NCBI GenBank assembly: GCA_009746045.1
Contig: RPFO01000500.1
Location: 60,001 to 124,000, forward strand
Direction: 5' to 3'
DNA: 64,000 nucleotides
DNA from: Mesostigma viride
Lineage: Eukaryota; Streptophyta; Mesostigmatophyceae; Mesostigmatales; Mesostigmataceae
The notes under the pieces were generated by a model. The model was not told the DNA's origin. It worked only from the letters and a program-made list of their open reading frames with translations, and ran no database searches. The stretch's first letter is position 1. The number at the start of each line of letters is the position of its first letter. Both the position numbers and the translations under genes were made by a program. This document shows positions 1-9,000 of this stretch, piece by piece.

Positions 1-321
1 CCATGCATGCGCGCGTGTGGGGGGGAGGGGTGGGTGGGGTGGGGTGGGTGGGGGCTGGGCGGGTGGGGTGGGGGTGGGGGAAGGGGGGGGGGGGGGGGGA
101 GTGGGTGCTAGCACGTGCATGCATGGGTGGCTGGCTGGCTGGCTGGAATGCATGTGTGTGTGTGGGGGGGTGGGGGGGTGGGGGGGGTGGGGGGGGGGGT
201 GGGGGGAGGGGGCAATGGCCATTGGCGAAATTGGTATCTCGAGGCAGCGCTCTCCATGGGCCGTGGATGCCTGCTCGGCTGGTAAGGGGGAAGATTTTGA
301 CGTGGACCCCGCCCAACGCCA

Positions 322-356
<35 letters not shown>

Positions 357-375
357 ACACACACACACACACTCA
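1..375. repeat. G-rich low-complexity tract followed by (CA)n microsatellite
   Basis: The first 210 bases are almost entirely G with scattered T, A and C. A (CA)n run interrupted by one TA occupies about 325-372. Every open frame here is a product of base composition. No coding signal is visible. Confidence 0.9.
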
Positions 376-564
376 CATGCTGAACACGGTGTGATGGCTC
401 AAACCAAGCACACGTTGCAGCTGTACCATTGCTTTCGAGTGGTGGGAGACGTGGCGCTCTTCCGTTCTTTTGACATTCCCATTTCCTGGGCCACTATCGT
501 CACCGTCTTCCCACATCGTGCGTGTTGCGGCCGATTCTTGTTTGCTGTGACCGGGGGGCGACAG

Positions 565-3500
565 ATGCGGGCAATCAGGCGCAAGCTCCCGAAGCAATTC
601 GAGGAGCCGCCCGCGTCCGCCGTCAACCACTTGGACGAGATCCCACGTCGGGCGGAGCGGGTAGGTGGGGCGACAAGATCACGAGGGGGGCGGGTGAGAT
701 CAGTCGCCGCGATGGACTGGTCAGGAGGATGTGGCGCGTCCCCTCACAATGCAGGTAGACCACACGCATGTCGGCGCGCTGACTGTGGTAGCCACTGGCA
801 GCACTCGGTATAGGACAGCGGCGAACGACTAGTGCGACGTAAGCGCCCGCCCCGTCGCTCATCACAATAGGAGCGGAGCGTTCCGAAGCATTAGCACTGC
901 GTGCTACGGCACCCTCCAATGGTCGAGTCCGGCTGGCAAGCAGGACTGCTGGGTTGGGGTGACGCAGTGGCGGGGGTCCACGTGAGAGGCACCCCACGCG
1001 CCGATATTGCACACACGATCCGTTATGGTATGCAAACAGGCCGGTTGGGAATAACGTCACACGGTGTGTCGTGGTTTTGCTGGTGGTGGACCCTATCGCC
1101 AGCGCGGACAGGGTTCCCCATAGCCGGCTTTCTCGTCGCACACCTGGTCACTCATGATTGCGGGGGTGCGTGCCCGGCTGGTTCTGTGTAATGGTGTGAG
1201 TCGGGGTTGTGTGCCTTGCCACACGTCCGGCCTTTCTCTTGGCTGACCCCCTTGCATGCAATCCTGTTGCACGGTGTCGTGCTTCGGAGTGCCATCCCAT
1301 GCAGGTGCACAAGCGCAAGGCAACCTTGCCTGACTACTGGTGGCACGTGGAGTACGTGGCCGGCACCAGTGCACTCCCCGCCGACGAGAAGGCGACCGGA
1401 CTCCTGAGGACAAGGGAATTGCTGCGGACGCAGATGACAGAGGACGGCGACCCGGAAGATGACCAGCAGAAGTCCGCGGTAGGTCGCTTGCAGCCGCCGA
1501 ACGCTCGCATGGGAAGGATGTCGTCCCTGCCCGTTGTGTTGTCTGCGTCGCAGTACACTCGCCTTTCCATCTCCCCCCCCCCCCCCCCCCCCACCCACAC
1601 ACACACACACACACACATGCGCACCACCCATCCCGCCCAACGCCTGATTGCCACCTCACAGTGACCCGCGCGCCCTGATGCCCGGAGAGTTCTTGCTCAA
1701 CTCACGTGTTTGTCTTCTTTGCATGTAATGGCCCACGGTGCAGGTGAAGAGCCTGCAGGCCAGAATAAAAACTCGACTTGAGTTGGCGCGCAAGGCGGAA
1801 AAGACCGAGGCGGAGCGCTCGGCTGGTGGCCACCCCGTGCAGGTGGGACTCCGAGCAAATGCACGCTTGTGGGAATGCAGGATGATGGGTGGTGGGTGTG
1901 GGATGTTGGGTGTGCTGCCCGTCATGTCCTGGTTCGGTTGCGCGTGGGCGGCGCACACACACGTTTCCCCTCGCTAATGCAGCCCCCATTCTGGCACACC
2001 CCCGTCCCACCCACCCCACCCACCGCGTCGTACCGCGGCTTCTTATGCCCAACCGGCGCAGCCACCAGGCGGGGTGTGCAAAGAAACCCCGCGTGCGTCG
2101 GGTGGACGCAGCGAAGCCGCACAGCGGGTACGTTGCCAGTCCGTACGTTTGTTTTGGTTGTTTTCGCGTCGTTCTTTTCGAACCTGCACGTTTGCTCGCC
2201 CGCCGGCCATATAATGCACCAGCGAGGACTACCCGCCGCACAGCGGCATAGGGAGGGAGGGAGGGAATAAAGGAAGGAAGGACGGAAGGAAGGAGGGAGG
2301 GAGGGAAGAGAGGAAGGAAGGAAGGAAGGAAGGGAGGAGGGAGGGAGGGAAGGAGGGAGGGCGGGAGGGAGGGAGGGAGGGAGGGAGGGAGGGAGGGAGG
2401 GAGGAGGGAGGGAGGGAGGGAGGGAGGGAGGGAGGGAGGGAGGGAGGGAGGGAGGGAGGGAGGGAGGGAGGAGGGAGGGAGGGAGGGAGGGAGGGATGGA
2501 GGGAGGGAGGGAGGGAGGGAGGGAGGGAGGGAGGGAGGGAGGGAGGGAGGGAGGGAGGGAGGGAGGGAGGGAGGGAGGGAGGGAGGGAGAGAGGGAGGGA
2601 GGGAGGGAGGGATGGAGGGAGGGAGGAGGGAGGGAGGGAGGGGGGGGGGGAGGGAGGGCGGGAGGGAGGGAGACAAGGAAGAGAGAGAGGGAGAGAGAGA
2701 GCGGAGCGCCTGACGGAAGGACGGCGGGGCGGGATGTCAGACCACTACCCTCACAAACATGTCCCCCTATCACTGCCCTCACAAACACGTCCCCCGTTCG
2801 CGTGACATGTCCCCTCTGATGCGGCCTTGTGACGGACAGGCTGCGCGTTCAGTCAGCAAACCGCATGTGAAGCGTACTACGGAGTGGGCCGCAGGCACCG
2901 GTCCCGACGAAGCGCACCATGCTACCGAGAACGACCAGTGGACCGCAGGCACCGGACCCGACGAAGCGCACCGTGCTGCCGAGAACGACCTCGGCCCGGC
3001 CCCCAAACGGGCGACGCCGGTACGTGACACGTGCACCCGTGGGTGGTGGATGGCCCGCGCTGGTGTGGACGCTGGCATGCGCACGGGCATGCACGTGCTG
3101 TGGCATGTCCGGGTGTGGTCAATGGCATGCACGCACGGGCGTGGAGACTGGCCGGCGTGGACGTGGTGGTTGATGGTTGGCGAGGGCGTGGTCGAGGGCC
3201 CGCGTGGGCGTGGTGGTGGATGGCATGGGAGGGCATGGGGTAGGGCCGGCGCGGGCGTGGCTGTGGGCATGCGAGGGCCCGGAGCTTGCTTGCATTCATG
3301 GGCGCGGTGGTTGGTAGCAGTGGTGCCGGTGGGTGGCATGCGTTGGCATGGTGGCCGATGGCACGCATGGACGCGCGGGTTGATGGCACGCGGGGATGTG
3401 GTTGCTGGCATGCGCGGGCGCGGAGGCTGGCGGCAGTGGTGCCGGTGGACGGCATGCGTGGGTGTTGTGGTGGATGGCATCCGCGGGGGCCGTGGGTGGC

Positions 3501-5949
3501 ATCCGCGCATGCCTCACGTGGCATGCAGTGGTGTGTTGGTTGCTGGCGCGCGTGCATGTGGTGGTGGGTGGCCTGCGTGGGCACGGTGGCTGATGACAGT
3601 GGGGTGTTTGCAGGTAGGCGCGTGTGTGGCGGGGGACGGCGTGCGCGGGTGTGTTGGTGGTGGGTTGCCTCGTGGGGCGCCCAAGCGTAGTGGGCGGGGG
3701 CGCGTGGTTGTGGGAGGCGCGCCGTCGTCACTCACCCACACTCTGTTCTCGGACGTCGCTGTGATGTCGTAAAACATTGTGTGCAGAACGGGACGCGCTC
3801 ACCTGGCGAGCCAAGCGAGAAGCACGCCGCGCCGGCCATGGTGGACGTGGTGAGCAACAGGTGCCAACACCCGGGCGGGTGCACCAAGCGACCCGCCTTT
3901 GCGGAGCGTGACGCCAAGAAGGGCCGGTTCTGCAAGGTGCACGCCGCGCAGGACATGGTGGACGTGGTGAGCAACAAGTGCGAACACGATAGCGGGTGCA
4001 CCAAGCGACCCGCCTTTGCGGAGCGTGACGCCAAGAAGGGCCGGTTCTGCAAGGCGCACGCCGCGCCGGATATGGTGGACGTGGTGAGCAACAAGTGCGA
4101 ACACGATAGCGGGTGCACCAAGCGACCCGCCTTTGCGGAGCGTGACGCCAAGAAGGGCCGGTTCTGCAAGGCGCACGCCGCGCAGGACATGGTGGACGTG
4201 GTGAGCAACAAGTGCGAACACGATAGCGGGTGCACCAAGCGACCCGCCTTTGCGGAGCGTGACGCCAGGAAGGGCCGGTTCTGCAAGGCGCACGCCGCGC
4301 CGGATATGGTGGACGTGGTGAGCAACAAGTGCGAACACGATAGCGGGTGCACCAAGCGACCCGCCTTTGCGGAGCGTGACGCCAAGAAGGGCCGGTTCTG
4401 CAAGGCGCACGCCGCGCAGGACATGGTGAACGTGGTGAGCAACGAGTGCGAACACGATAGCGGGTGCACCAAGCAACCCTCGTTTGCGGAGCGTGGCGCC
4501 AAGAAGCCCCGGTTCTGCAGCGAGCACATCGAGGATGGCATGGTGGACGTGGTGCATCCCAGGTGCCAACACCCGGGCGGGTGCAACAAGCGACCCGCCT
4601 TTGCGGCGCGCGGCGCCGAGAAGGGCCGGTTCTGCAAGGCGCACGCCGCGCCGGCCATGGTGGACGTGGTGAGCAACAAGTGCGAACACGATAGCGGGTG
4701 CACCAAGCGACCCGCCTTTGCGGAGCGTGACGCCAAGAAGGGCCGGTTCTGCAAGGTGCACGCCGCGCCGGACATGGTGAACGTGGTGAGCAACAAGTGC
4801 GAACACGATAGCGGGTGCACCAAGCGACCCGCCTTTGCGGAGCGTGACGCCAAGAAGGGCCGGTTCTGCAAGGCGCACGCCGCGCCGGACATGGTGGACG
4901 TGGTGAGCAACAAGTGCGAACACGACAGCGGGTGCACCAAGCAACCCTCGTTTGCGGAGCGCGGCGCCAAGAAGCCCCGGTTCTGCAGCGAGCACATCGA
5001 GGATGGCATGGTGGACGTGGTGCATCCCAGGTGCCAACACCCGGGCGGGTGTGAGGCGTTTGCGCGGTGGGGCGACGTGGGTGAAAGCGCCGTCCACTGC
5101 GCGGAGCACAAGACCGATTCCGCCGTCCCTGAGCCGCGACAACGGTGCAAGGCGGAGGCATGCCAGGCCGTGGGCACGTACGCGGGCCCGGATCATGGCG
5201 AGCGCTTCTGCGACGCCCACGCAGAGGCGGGCCACCAGCGGCTGGCGGGCGTGTGCGACGACTGTGGTCTACACTGGGAGTGGAGATCGGGGGTGCCCGT
5301 GGTCCTCACCCCAGCAGAGGGCAAGATCGCGGGCCAGCGACGGCCCCTTCGCAACCGCTGCGTGTACTGCGACCCCGTCGTGTTCAACAATCATCGACAC
5401 CGCGAGGAGTGGAAGGTGGCCGCTGCCCTACAGAAGGTGCGCATCGCCCGGTGGACGCTGGTGCACGACCGGCGGATCAACGGCGGCGAGTGCGTGGCGA
5501 GCCGGCCGGATTTCATCATATACACGGATGGTGCCCACGTCGTCATCGTCGAGGTCGACGAGCACCAGCACCGCTCGTACGACCAGTACTGCGAGCTCGT
5601 GCGGCTGTTCAACCTCGGACAGTCGTGCGAGGGGCTGCCGCTGCTGGTCATCAGATACAACCCCCACTCGTACCGCAGCTCCGGGGGGGAACTCGTCCAC
5701 GGGGGGACCGATGCCAGCGACGAGCAGCGACAGGCCGTGCTGCTGTCGTACGTGACGGCGCTGCTGGACAACGCATACAACCCCCACGAGCGCAAACCGC
5801 AAGCGCACTGCCGAGCAGTGAAGCTTTTCTACGATGGATGGGATGACGACGCCATGACCGTGCCCACCGACAAGGGGCCCCACTGGCTGGACATCCAGCT
5901 AGTCGACAAGCCCTACGAGATCGCCTGCCTGGCGACGGCCGAGCCGTAG
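565..5949 (+). CDS. EsV-1-7 repeat protein with C-terminal PD-(D/E)XK-like nuclease domain
   Basis: Proposed exons are 565-660, 1305-1478, 1744-1842, 2062-2127, 2840-3019 and 3787-5949. All five joins are phase 0 with GTAGGT, GTGGG or GTACGT donors and CAG acceptors, giving about 925 aa. The first 230 residues are basic and charged, contain a twice-repeated GTGPDEAH motif, and match no family I know. From about residue 231 come ten 39-residue units C-x5-C-x16-C-x2-H-x12 and two degenerate ones. This is the EsV-1-7 pattern of the brown-alga IMM protein and virus EsV-1, with one extra residue between the first two cysteines. A CDDC/CVYC pair (about 695-733) looks like a zinc ribbon. The last 200 residues hold RPDF (about 778), EVDEHQH (about 794), a following CE...R and an IRYNPHSY strand, as in nuclease-like domains of giant viruses and protists. 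The ATG at 565 follows CAG, so it could be internal to a longer exon. The large last exon has no intron, unlike its neighbours. Confidence 0.68.
1571..1618. repeat. poly(C) run and (CA)n in an intron
   Basis: A homopolymeric C stretch of about 20 bases is followed directly by a (CA)n run. It lies in the intron between proposed exons 1305-1478 and 1744-1842. Length errors are likely here. Confidence 0.85.
2251..2700. repeat. (GGGA)n polypurine microsatellite, about 450 bp
   Basis: Nearly uninterrupted GGGA units with a few GGAA, GGGC and GGAT variants, ending in GAGAGA. It lies in the intron between exons 2062-2127 and 2840-3019. The strand is all purine, so it could form triplex DNA. The long Pro/Ser (minus) and Gly/Arg/Glu (plus) frames across it are artefacts. 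Confidence 0.95.
3020..3786 (+). other. Intron with degenerate GTGG/GGCATGC minisatellite
   Basis: The 767-bp intron before the EsV-1-7 exon is built of imperfect units rich in GTGGTGG and GGCATGC, with no clean period. It starts GTACGT and ends TGTGCAG. Frames through it give Trp/Gly-rich or Pro/His/Ala-rich translations of no coding character. Confidence 0.6.
3862..5031 (+). repeat. 117-bp coding tandem repeat encoding ten EsV-1-7 units
   Basis: Ten in-frame 117-bp units, each 39 codons, nearly identical at DNA level including silent positions. Units 1 and 7 begin CQHPGGC; the other eight begin CEHDSGC. Units 6 and 10 share a distinctive second half (PRFCSEHIEDGMVDVVHPR), so the array reads as a 6-unit block followed by a 4-unit block. 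Two diverged units (about 5032-5250) end the series. This pattern fits recent unit and block duplication or gene conversion. Confidence 0.92.
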
Positions 5950-6034
5950 CTGGCGCGTCGCGCATGTTGTGTTGGTCTGTCGCACGCTCGTGGATGTAGA
6001 CCGACCGGTTTGGTTGTGCTGAACACCGGCCTCT

Positions 6035-6039
6035 TGTAA
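6035..6039 (+). promoter_or_regulatory. Probable poly(A) signal TGTAA
   Basis: TGTAA lies about 85 bases after the stop codon of the EsV-1-7 gene. TGTAA is the usual polyadenylation motif in volvocalean green algae. A pentamer is common by chance, so only the position supports it. Confidence 0.5.
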
Positions 6040-9000
6040 ACCACACATGTGCCGAGATGGCTGTCCTGATGCCTGCGAAAACGCCTGAATGGAGGACGCT
6101 GGGACCGTATATTTAACCCCTAAATGGGCAGAAATACTGCCGATGCATCGGCTTTAACTTCACAATTTTGCAAACCAGATGCCATCCAACCCACCCATAT
6201 CCAATGGCTGTCCTTGGGGGCCAAGCATGTCCATGAGTTGCCCTTCGGGTTGGTATATCATAACCTTACAAATCTGCAGGGTAGGCCATAGAAAACTACC
6301 TCCAAAGTTAGGGGGGTCGAGACGCGCGTTTTCATTTTTGGTAGAATGTGCATTTTGAATTATGTTGTAAGAGCTAGGCACCTACCACTTCAGGGATGAT
6401 AAACAATTGGTTGCTGAACAGTTTGAGCCATTGGGGTCATCATTTGGGTGGGTATACCAGCAGTTACACCCAGTACAGCCCATAGGGGTACCGTTGGTAA
6501 AGCAACCAAGGGGGTAGGGTGGGCATACTACCTACTATACCTACTAATATGGCCCCCAACCATGCCACACACACATTTCCCTTCCACAATGATGGGGAAA
6601 CATAACTGCATCATCACACTGCCCTTACATGGCACCTATGTGCAGGTGCCACCTTGTCCATGCACGTAGTAACGTGGTACGGATACCCTACGCAAGGCAT
6701 GCATTCTAGGAGGCAGCCACCAACAAACTAGTGATTTTAAGCCTATTTCAGCTTGCCCTAGCAAGGATACTAGGCCTAAGCTGCTATAGCTTGCCAGGTG
6801 ATGGCCAGCACACCTGGTGGCACATGCTGACAATGGGAAGCGTCTACTCACCGGTTACATGCTTGATGATGCCACAGAGACCAGCCAACTGCCTCACACT
6901 CATGCAATATGTGTGTGGGAAATGTATAACAAACATATATGGAGGTATTCAAACCCATACAGCCTCTAAAACTTATCACCATCACACTGTGGCAGGTCAA
7001 CTGACTGAAGGAAGCATCTAAGAAGGGTGTTTTAGAAAGGGGCCAGGCCAGGGTCAAGAAAGAGCATGAATAATGCAAAAAGAATGTGCTACACAAGCTA
7101 GAACGTATATATAAACGTAAAACATCGATAGGAAAACGATGCTTAAGCTTTAACTGGCATGAATGGCGTTACCTTGGCCCAGGCGGTGGCCGCAAAATGG
7201 CGCATTTCGGCACACCAAAGTTGTGCAGCATGGTCGCTGGATTCGGCGATTTCTGGCCACCCTTGCACGTTTACGACTACTATGTATCATAATAAGTACA
7301 AAGAAACCAATATATGCTTTAAAATACGCCGGAAAGTTATTGCTGTCAACGTTTCTATCGTCCGGCCTGATCGCAGTTTTTTCCAGCAAGAACGCTGCCG
7401 ACACCTATCAAATGGCATTCCCGCGAACCAAAAATTGGCCTGTATTATCTTTAGGACGTATAAAATCAATTTCCTGAGTTTGGTCAGAAAATTCTAACGA
7501 AAACGTAAATGCCGTGCGTGGGCGCAAGCCGCCATGGCCAGGTCGTCGTTTTCCGGAATGCACGTTGTAAGTACTGTCGTTTCTGAGGGTGCCCATTGCC
7601 GTCGGGTGTTGACGAGCGCCAGAGCGGGGGGGCGCTGCCAGAAGAAGGCATGCACGGTCTCGAGGGGACGGCGTCGCGCTGCGTACTTAAAGGCAGGGAA
7701 AGGCACCGACGCAGGCCTTCTCGATGACCGTGAACATCGCGTGTTGAACAAATTTTGTTCGGTGTGCAAGTGTCAGCCGTGTCACCAATGGACACCGCGA
7801 GATACGCCTGCTCGTTCTACATTCCGGCTGAGCAAAGCCCGCCCGGTCCTAGATTCCATAAATGCCCCCGCTACCGTTCGTGGAATCTGGTCCAGGGTCG
7901 TCGGTTGGCGCGCGGGGAGCCGTGCAGTACTGTAAAGATTCTCTGCTGCCCATGCGCGGGAAACCCCTGCCCCCCTCTGTGTGTGTGCGTGGTTTTGCGA
8001 GGCAACCACTTGTGCCCTTCGGTAGCAGCGTTCATGGGTGTCCGCGAGTGCGCGAGAAAAAATGTGCTTGTGCAAGCACGCGTGGGCGCGGCGCTTCTCC
8101 CAAACGACGCAAACAGATATGTACTCAGACAGGACTCAGAACTCGGAAAGTCAGAACCAGGCTGGCCTTGCCAAGGGTGCTGCTGCCGACCTGAAACTAA
8201 CCAAGTTTTGACCCTGCATGGCCCTGCTACTGCAAGACCCCCGCGCCGCGCCACTGTAAAGGCTGGTGCTGGCGCGTGGGTGCAGTGCAGCAGATGCAGA
8301 TGCTTTACTGTCACTTGTGTGGGTGGTTCCGCTTTCGCGATCGATTTATTTTTCAGGCGCCAAAAATTTAAAGTTCGTACCATCCGAGACTACTGTACTG
8401 TACCGTCCGACCACCGGCGCGGGAATAACAACTCAACCGTGCATAAGTGGTGCACATTGCGCGGCCCCCTAGCGAGGCTGGCATAGCGGTGTGGTTTCAG
8501 GCAACACTTGTCAAACAGCGTAATGAAGAAAAAGTGCGTCAACTTATATATCATCGTCTTCAGAGTTGTACGTTTTGCATCGTCGATCAACCTTTTGATG
8601 ACCATCGGCATGGGGGTCCAAAATGAAAATTTCGTCGCGGGGAATAAATCAGAATGCGCATGCACGCTAGCGGCGGCGATTGTCAGGTTTGATGGGCTTC
8701 AATTAGCTTCACGGGTGCTTTTACATTGTTTTTAATGAAGCCTTTAAAAAATTGCTGGGTTTTGGTAAGATTTCTGCCACTATCGGTACAGCACTCTCCA
8801 GGCTGCGAGATGCGTGCGCGTCTTATTATCCATGGCCTTTCTTGCGCCGTTGGGCCAAAGACAATTCCGGTAATTGTACGATCGTATGCTCAGCGTCACC
8901 CTATAAATGCTCTCTTCTTTCAAAGGTTATTTACGTAGAACATTTGCCTTTTTCCCGGGCAGTTACCGCCAGATCGCTTGCCATTCTGTGCTGCGTATCG

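Follow-up and report, generated by a model that had tools for sequence, protein, structure and literature searches.

We consider it probable that the gene described here, which lies on the forward strand of the 64,000-nucleotide stretch of Mesostigma viride DNA that was analyzed (the window), is a member of a recently amplified nuclear family of this alga, a single-celled and early-branching streptophyte, working as a natural zinc-finger nuclease. Its EsV-1-7 units would be zinc-binding modules that jointly choose a DNA target, its C-terminal Vsr/EDxHD-type domain would nick or cut the chosen target, and copies would spread by repair of the breaks that the protein itself makes. Coordinates are those of the window unless a contig or locus is named.

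An EsV-1-7 array joined to a nuclease-like domain

The array occupies 3862..5220 and begins with ten strict C-x5-C-x16-C-x2-H units, which start at 3862, 3979, 4096, 4213, 4330, 4447, 4564, 4681, 4798 and 4915 with a 117-bp period, followed by two degenerate units, C-x5-C-x15-C-x2-H at 5032 and C-x4-C-x15-C-x2-H at 5146. A preliminary description, made from the sequence alone, had counted twelve units of one type; twelve are present, but only ten are strict. Its assignment of the repeats to EsV-1-7 is borne out by a Pfam profile search, in which EsV_1_7_cys (PF19114) matched 11 stretches of the array with an E-value of 9.6e-139 and a score of 451.3 bits, far above the gathering threshold of 25 bits used as the cut-off for membership. 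The tandem run of ten strict and two degenerate units places the array in the same family. The probability that any one given frame of 722 codons is open by chance is about 2e-8 (66% GC). The predicted structure of the array (pLDDT 91.5, pTM 0.58) gave no match to solved structures at E ≤ 1e-3, and the weak matches (E 3.9 and worse) include PHD-type histone readers.

Downstream of the array, CDDC (5254) and CVYC (5359) delimit a probable zinc-binding lead-in (5254..5370) to the C-terminal domain (5374..5946). Among 90 aligned sequences, at least 90% keep both cysteines of CVYC, whereas CDDC is conserved less. An AlphaFold model of the domain (pLDDT 76.7, pTM 0.74) shares the core fold of the Vsr/EDxHD branch of the PD-(D/E)XK superfamily, and its structural match to I-Bth0305I covers 5398-5769. 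The model and fold comparison thus support the predicted nuclease fold, closest to the Vsr/EDxHD types, in agreement with the preliminary description, every claimed motif of which (CDDC, CVYC, RPDF, EVDEHQH, CE...R and IRYNPHSY) was found. Within the domain these are RPDF at 5503, EVDEHQH at 5551, CELVR at 5590 and IRYNPHSY at 5650 (RYNPHSY at 5653). The P, E, D, E and H of RPD...ExDExxH are invariant among the 90 sequences; numbered in the domain, Glu-109, Asp-111, Glu-112 and His-115 are invariant, and Asp-95, the aspartate of RPD, occurs in at least 90% of them. These five are the probable equivalents of the Vsr catalytic residues. The NERD profile (PF08378) reached 18.0 bits, below its gathering threshold of 22.1, and sequence searches of the PDB yielded no significant match (best E 0.087 in one and 0.12 in another, no match in a third).

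The gene model of the window copy

From the sequence, a plausible gene of six exons and 982 amino acids can be assembled, with 3787..5949 as exon 6. Array and nuclease domain do lie together in one exon, as the preliminary description had it, but five further exons are probably present upstream. Exon 1 (394..660) encodes an N-terminal region starting MAQTKHT and has a GT donor in the seven copies aligned there. Exon 2 (1305..1478, HKRKATLPDYWWHVEYVAG...) draws on the spliced models P0121 and P0123, in which upstream spliced exons are visible, on the gene model and on copy alignments. Exon 3 (1744..1842, KSLQARIKTRLELARKAEKTEAERSAGGHPVQ) also keeps the frame with a start at 1750, and exon 4 (2062..2127), the splice dinucleotides of which are kept in the aligned copies, has an in-frame alternative at 2069-2131. 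Exon 5 (2840..3019) ends at a GTACGT donor at 3020, the GT being present in all 14 aligned copies, and exon 6 carries the array, the nuclease domain and the stop codon.

The six GT-AG exons join in one frame of 982 codons, and three near variants at exons 3 and 4 stay in frame. All splice dinucleotides covered by the copy alignments are GT or AG (14 of 14 copies). Of the 20 fetched copies, 19 have the predicted acceptor GTGCAG just before 3787, and the remaining one (L027) is truncated there; position 3787, where the preliminary description began the frame, lies directly 3' of this acceptor. P0121 (Mesvir1/21882) is 100% identical in protein sequence over window 394-663, and the window tail is 94% identical to gene model jgi/Mesvir1/21294 (P0001). 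Against the model, P0121 stops short of exon 6, frame-changing indels occur in exon 1 of three of the six copies aligned across it, and exon 5 is only partly aligned in the 14 copies, its first part, with the predicted acceptor, in none. Exon 1 is found as a single open piece in eight places genome-wide. In the N-terminal region (394-3019) no Pfam match fell below E 0.3, and the five relatives of the ORF at 1209-1661 are each labelled Mesvir1.

A dispersed multicopy family

The most important property of the gene, invisible to the preliminary description, is its multicopy state. A six-frame search of the M. viride genome (440 Mb, 2243 contigs; 64 of 139 candidates scored) gave at least 98 matches, with tail matches on at least 38 contigs. 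A search with the N-terminal exons yielded 91 exon matches, spread over 25 contigs. A tail match is present on 23 of these contigs but not on the other two, C1624 and C1480, and on C1106 one weak N-terminal match lies far from any tail match. Twenty copies, the window copy included, were fetched with their flanks, and four more in part. Exon 6 is open in 12 of the 20 and broken or truncated in the other eight, in a set chosen via protein, from which copies lacking an ORF would escape detection.

The copies share non-coding as well as coding DNA. The largest span in common with another copy (L020) is 397..7959, up to 7.6 kb, and similarity to four other copies extends to window 2-65 through simple repeats. 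Beyond the stop codon, identity in the non-coding DNA is mostly 90-99% until each copy ends, a level much like that of the coding core. Among 18 readable copies there are 15 different 3' ends; one is common to L010 and L017, another to L013, L023 and L025. In most compared pairs similarity stops at or within window 2-7959 and the flanks are unrelated. Flanking DNA beyond the unit is shared by L010/L017, by L012/L028 and, over 81 bp, by L023/L025, so some copies were made by larger duplication. Haplotigs may be present among the small contigs, since L010 and L012 have 98.8% identity across 6.9 kb.

At the ends that could be defined, the 11 copies tested showed neither target-site duplications nor terminal repeats, the longest common string being 6 bp at unequal offsets; as both ends vary, the true termini may be missing from this comparison, and three of the left ends are assembly gaps with N runs. 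None of the ten ORFs of the unit had a Pfam match to a transposase or reverse transcriptase (none better than E 0.3). A LINE, with one fixed and one variable end, was ruled out since both ends are variable. Dispersal together with matching non-coding DNA, the ragged ends and the lack of any transposase signature lead us to favor spread by break repair; the mobility of the family, and the dependence of its copying on the nuclease, are what we infer from this pattern.

Three other features of these loci were recorded. By eye, the left end of L019 and the right end of L027 have the same flank, TGTTACGTCGCGTAAC, in opposite orientation, which is probably the terminus of another transposon or repeat. 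Diverged EsV-nuclease matches occur in convergent, tail-to-tail pairs at C336:265921-268042, at three places on C69 and at C1170:511-2632, about 120-570 bp apart, with one member of each pair containing two in-frame TAA codons. L040 (C2022:6452000-6456500, minus strand) has an EsV-1-7 array of nine units by pattern, with His/Gly-rich sequence and no nuclease behind it, and could be an IMM-type EsV-1-7 gene.

Two modes of evolution within one protein

The nuclease core has a pN/pS of 0.62 (pS 0.034; 20 copies, 474 bases), whereas the array units give 1.74 within copies (bootstrap over copies 1.43-2.13), 1.23 between copies (a random 70 of 143 units) and 1.53 in the window array by itself. Under the mutation spectrum seen in the non-coding 3' DNA, neutral evolution would yield 0.93 in the core and 0.90 in the units. 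Unit statistics cover strict 39-residue units only, 143 from 19 of the 20 copies; because these were selected by C1, H3, C7, C24 and H27, the constancy of those residues is uninformative. Change clusters at unit positions 5, 8, 10, 21, 25, 26, 28-31 and 37-39, and G6, F13 and A18 are constant across 111 distinct units. Likeness between units is 93.9% within copies versus 85.7% between copies, indicating that arrays are homogenized and rebuilt. Nineteen copies have between 2 and 13 strict units each, and the truncated L027 has none.

In a second subfamily, described below, pN/pS is 0.47 and 0.45 for two arrays and 0.12 for the tail, which suggests that the excess change is not general to EsV arrays; the units there are old (pS about 0.53), making the comparison with the window family only a rough one. 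Recognition arrays under pressure to change their targets are familiar from PRDM9 and the KRAB zinc fingers. The excess in the window family fits the pattern expected of a recognition array pressed to switch targets, whatever its ligand may be.

Relatives, a second subfamily and the viral question

When eight tails were combined into a profile, a search with it brought up 228 proteins, the best 120 of which were considered further. Among these 120, an EVDExQH-type motif is present in 111 and, by a loose pattern, at least one EsV-like unit in 76. In the environmental protein P0092, the same nuclease tail stands behind eight WRKY19-type zinc fingers (PF24906). The fusion is therefore recurrent rather than specific to this locus, and its finger part can be swapped.

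Trees were built with homologues drawn from the same 120, mostly environmental proteins, the first with 111 and the window, the second with 106, the window and three further Mesostigma rows (L038, L039 and L041), six long-branch rows being left out of the second. The window family has a long stem (1.52) and no well-supported sister. The preliminary description had raised a domesticated viral gene as one possible origin; the window copy may be one, but with this stem the tree speaks neither for nor against it, and the gene model contains five introns. Nor do the trees bear out the vertical descent within green algae that it named as the alternative, since Chlorella vulgaris P0070, the sole named green homologue among the matches listed, falls in a third group (100/100).

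L039 (C833:5510-7270) and L041 (C777:491660-493456) form a second subfamily, each a single open frame of 8-9 units with a tail closer to the environmental type. They join P0017 and P0053 (98/86), and from this placement apart from the window family it seems that at least two lineages were received or kept. An intronless SET-domain ORF (L042:2018-3301, where L042 is C777:485000-490999; E 1.4e-10) ends about 3.4 kb upstream of the L041 frame, and between the two lies an ORF (L042:4060-5028) with C-terminal wording similar, by eye, to that of the SET-domain ORF. This neighborhood, with both ORFs within about 5 kb upstream, is a possible viral insert, judged from its gene content.

Fold homologues of the tail were found among viral proteins in BFVD, in line with the nuclease domains of giant viruses cited in the preliminary description; the first 26 matches have 17-32% identity over 132-236 columns with E-values of 9e-12 to 4e-5. 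Three scans of viral contigs with three queries found no relatives, and tblastn found none in phage records. Given the BFVD homologues, the result for viral contigs is best read as a limit of the collection or the patterns, not as absence from viruses. For prokaryotes, one scan of the genome_contigs collection with one peptide pattern yielded 124 stretches, only one of them a confirmed match. It lies on a MAG contig of 4 kb, the other ORFs of which look low-complexity, and we take it to be probable contamination.

Discussion

Several known systems share part of this architecture. The EsV-1-7 domain is patchily distributed across eukaryotes and viruses (PMC7457493), and the function of the family, which is expanded in brown algae and present in giant viruses, is called unknown or uncharacterized (PMC12477816, PMC7457493). 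The window gene has PF19114 repeats in common with IMM of Ectocarpus and the EsV-1 virus; it differs in their fusion to a nuclease, which the available portion of PMC7457493 does not mention, and the parts of the EsV-1-7 literature that were searched yielded no description of such a fusion. The nearest described arrangement is the Mariner transposase TcMar-2_Ec32 of Ectocarpus, in which an N-terminal EsV-1-7 domain accompanies the DNA-cutting enzyme of a mobile element (PMC12477816); TcMar-2_Ec32 is a Mariner-Tc1 transposon, whereas the enzyme part of the window family is of PD-(D/E)XK type, and the search for TIRs found none. Giant-virus "Endonuclease" and zinc-finger proteins (Pithovirus, Cedratvirus, Faunusvirus, Marseillevirus-like, HaV01 and AaV, some matches being nameless) have a nuclease domain similar in prediction, on which the comparison was made; the window gene differs from them in its introns and many close genomic copies. 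The EDxHD homing endonuclease I-Bth0305I and the Vsr mismatch-repair nickase have 11-14% sequence identity to the tail and, to our knowledge, no EsV array. Engineered zinc-finger nucleases, which are artificial combinations of C2H2 fingers and FokI, resemble the window protein in joining a finger array to a PD-(D/E)XK-superfamily cutter.

The proposal in the preliminary description that the repeats recognize and the tail cuts agrees with the amino-acid excess in the array, and it stands as an inference from that pattern. On balance we lean toward a selfish, homing-like or break-repair-driven element. A fuller version, to which we give a rather low probability, is a self-amplifying eukaryotic zinc-finger nuclease in which the array retargets by unit shuffling and diversifying selection and the protein's own cuts drive copying by break repair, with no part played by a transposase, a reverse transcriptase or terminal repeats.

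We rank the selfish reading as a whole above a role in host defense against DNA viruses or transposons, which is unlikely but is the strongest of the alternatives. An expanded defense or regulatory family would be spread by segmental duplication while its arrays diversified in pursuit of these invaders, as in the arms races of KRAB zinc-finger and NLR genes. It accounts as well as the selfish reading does for array change (pN/pS 1.74 in units against 0.62 in the core), and the introns of the gene model and the flanks shared beyond the unit by L010/L017, L012/L028 and L023/L025 are in keeping with it, as are the abundant segmental duplications reported in the available text of the Mesostigma genome paper (PMC6947507). 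The pattern of most compared pairs, which are alike only within window 2-7959 and have unrelated flanks, speaks against it.

Less probable still are integrated giant-virus remnants, by which the gene arrived in a viral insert, was copied and gained introns, what is left today being for the most part cargo in decay. The viral fold homologues of the tail, the single-exon second subfamily with its nearby SET-domain ORF and the eight broken or truncated copies would suit such an origin, but five introns interrupt the gene model of the window copy, core pN/pS lies under the neutral expectation with exon 6 open in 12 of 20 copies, and the window family does not stand beside the second subfamily in the tree. 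Equally improbable is a chromatin or signaling scaffold that keeps the fold, has lost catalysis and binds protein through its EsV-1-7 units, as IMM might, for which the array model's want of a significant solved match, the PHD-type readers among its weak ones and the developmental role of IMM given in the accessible part of PMC7457493 can be cited, and against which stands the conservation of the RPD...ExDExxH residues.

What is new here is the plausible six-exon gene, the dispersed multicopy family, the contrast in rate between core and array and the second, single-exon subfamily. If the array reads DNA by a code, EsV-1-7 would join TALE and C2H2 arrays as a new modular repeat for DNA recognition, one that nature has already paired with a nuclease, and the EsV-1-7 domain family would gain a function. 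In the alga itself, a nuclease gene of a family shared with giant viruses would be amplifying in the nuclear genome.
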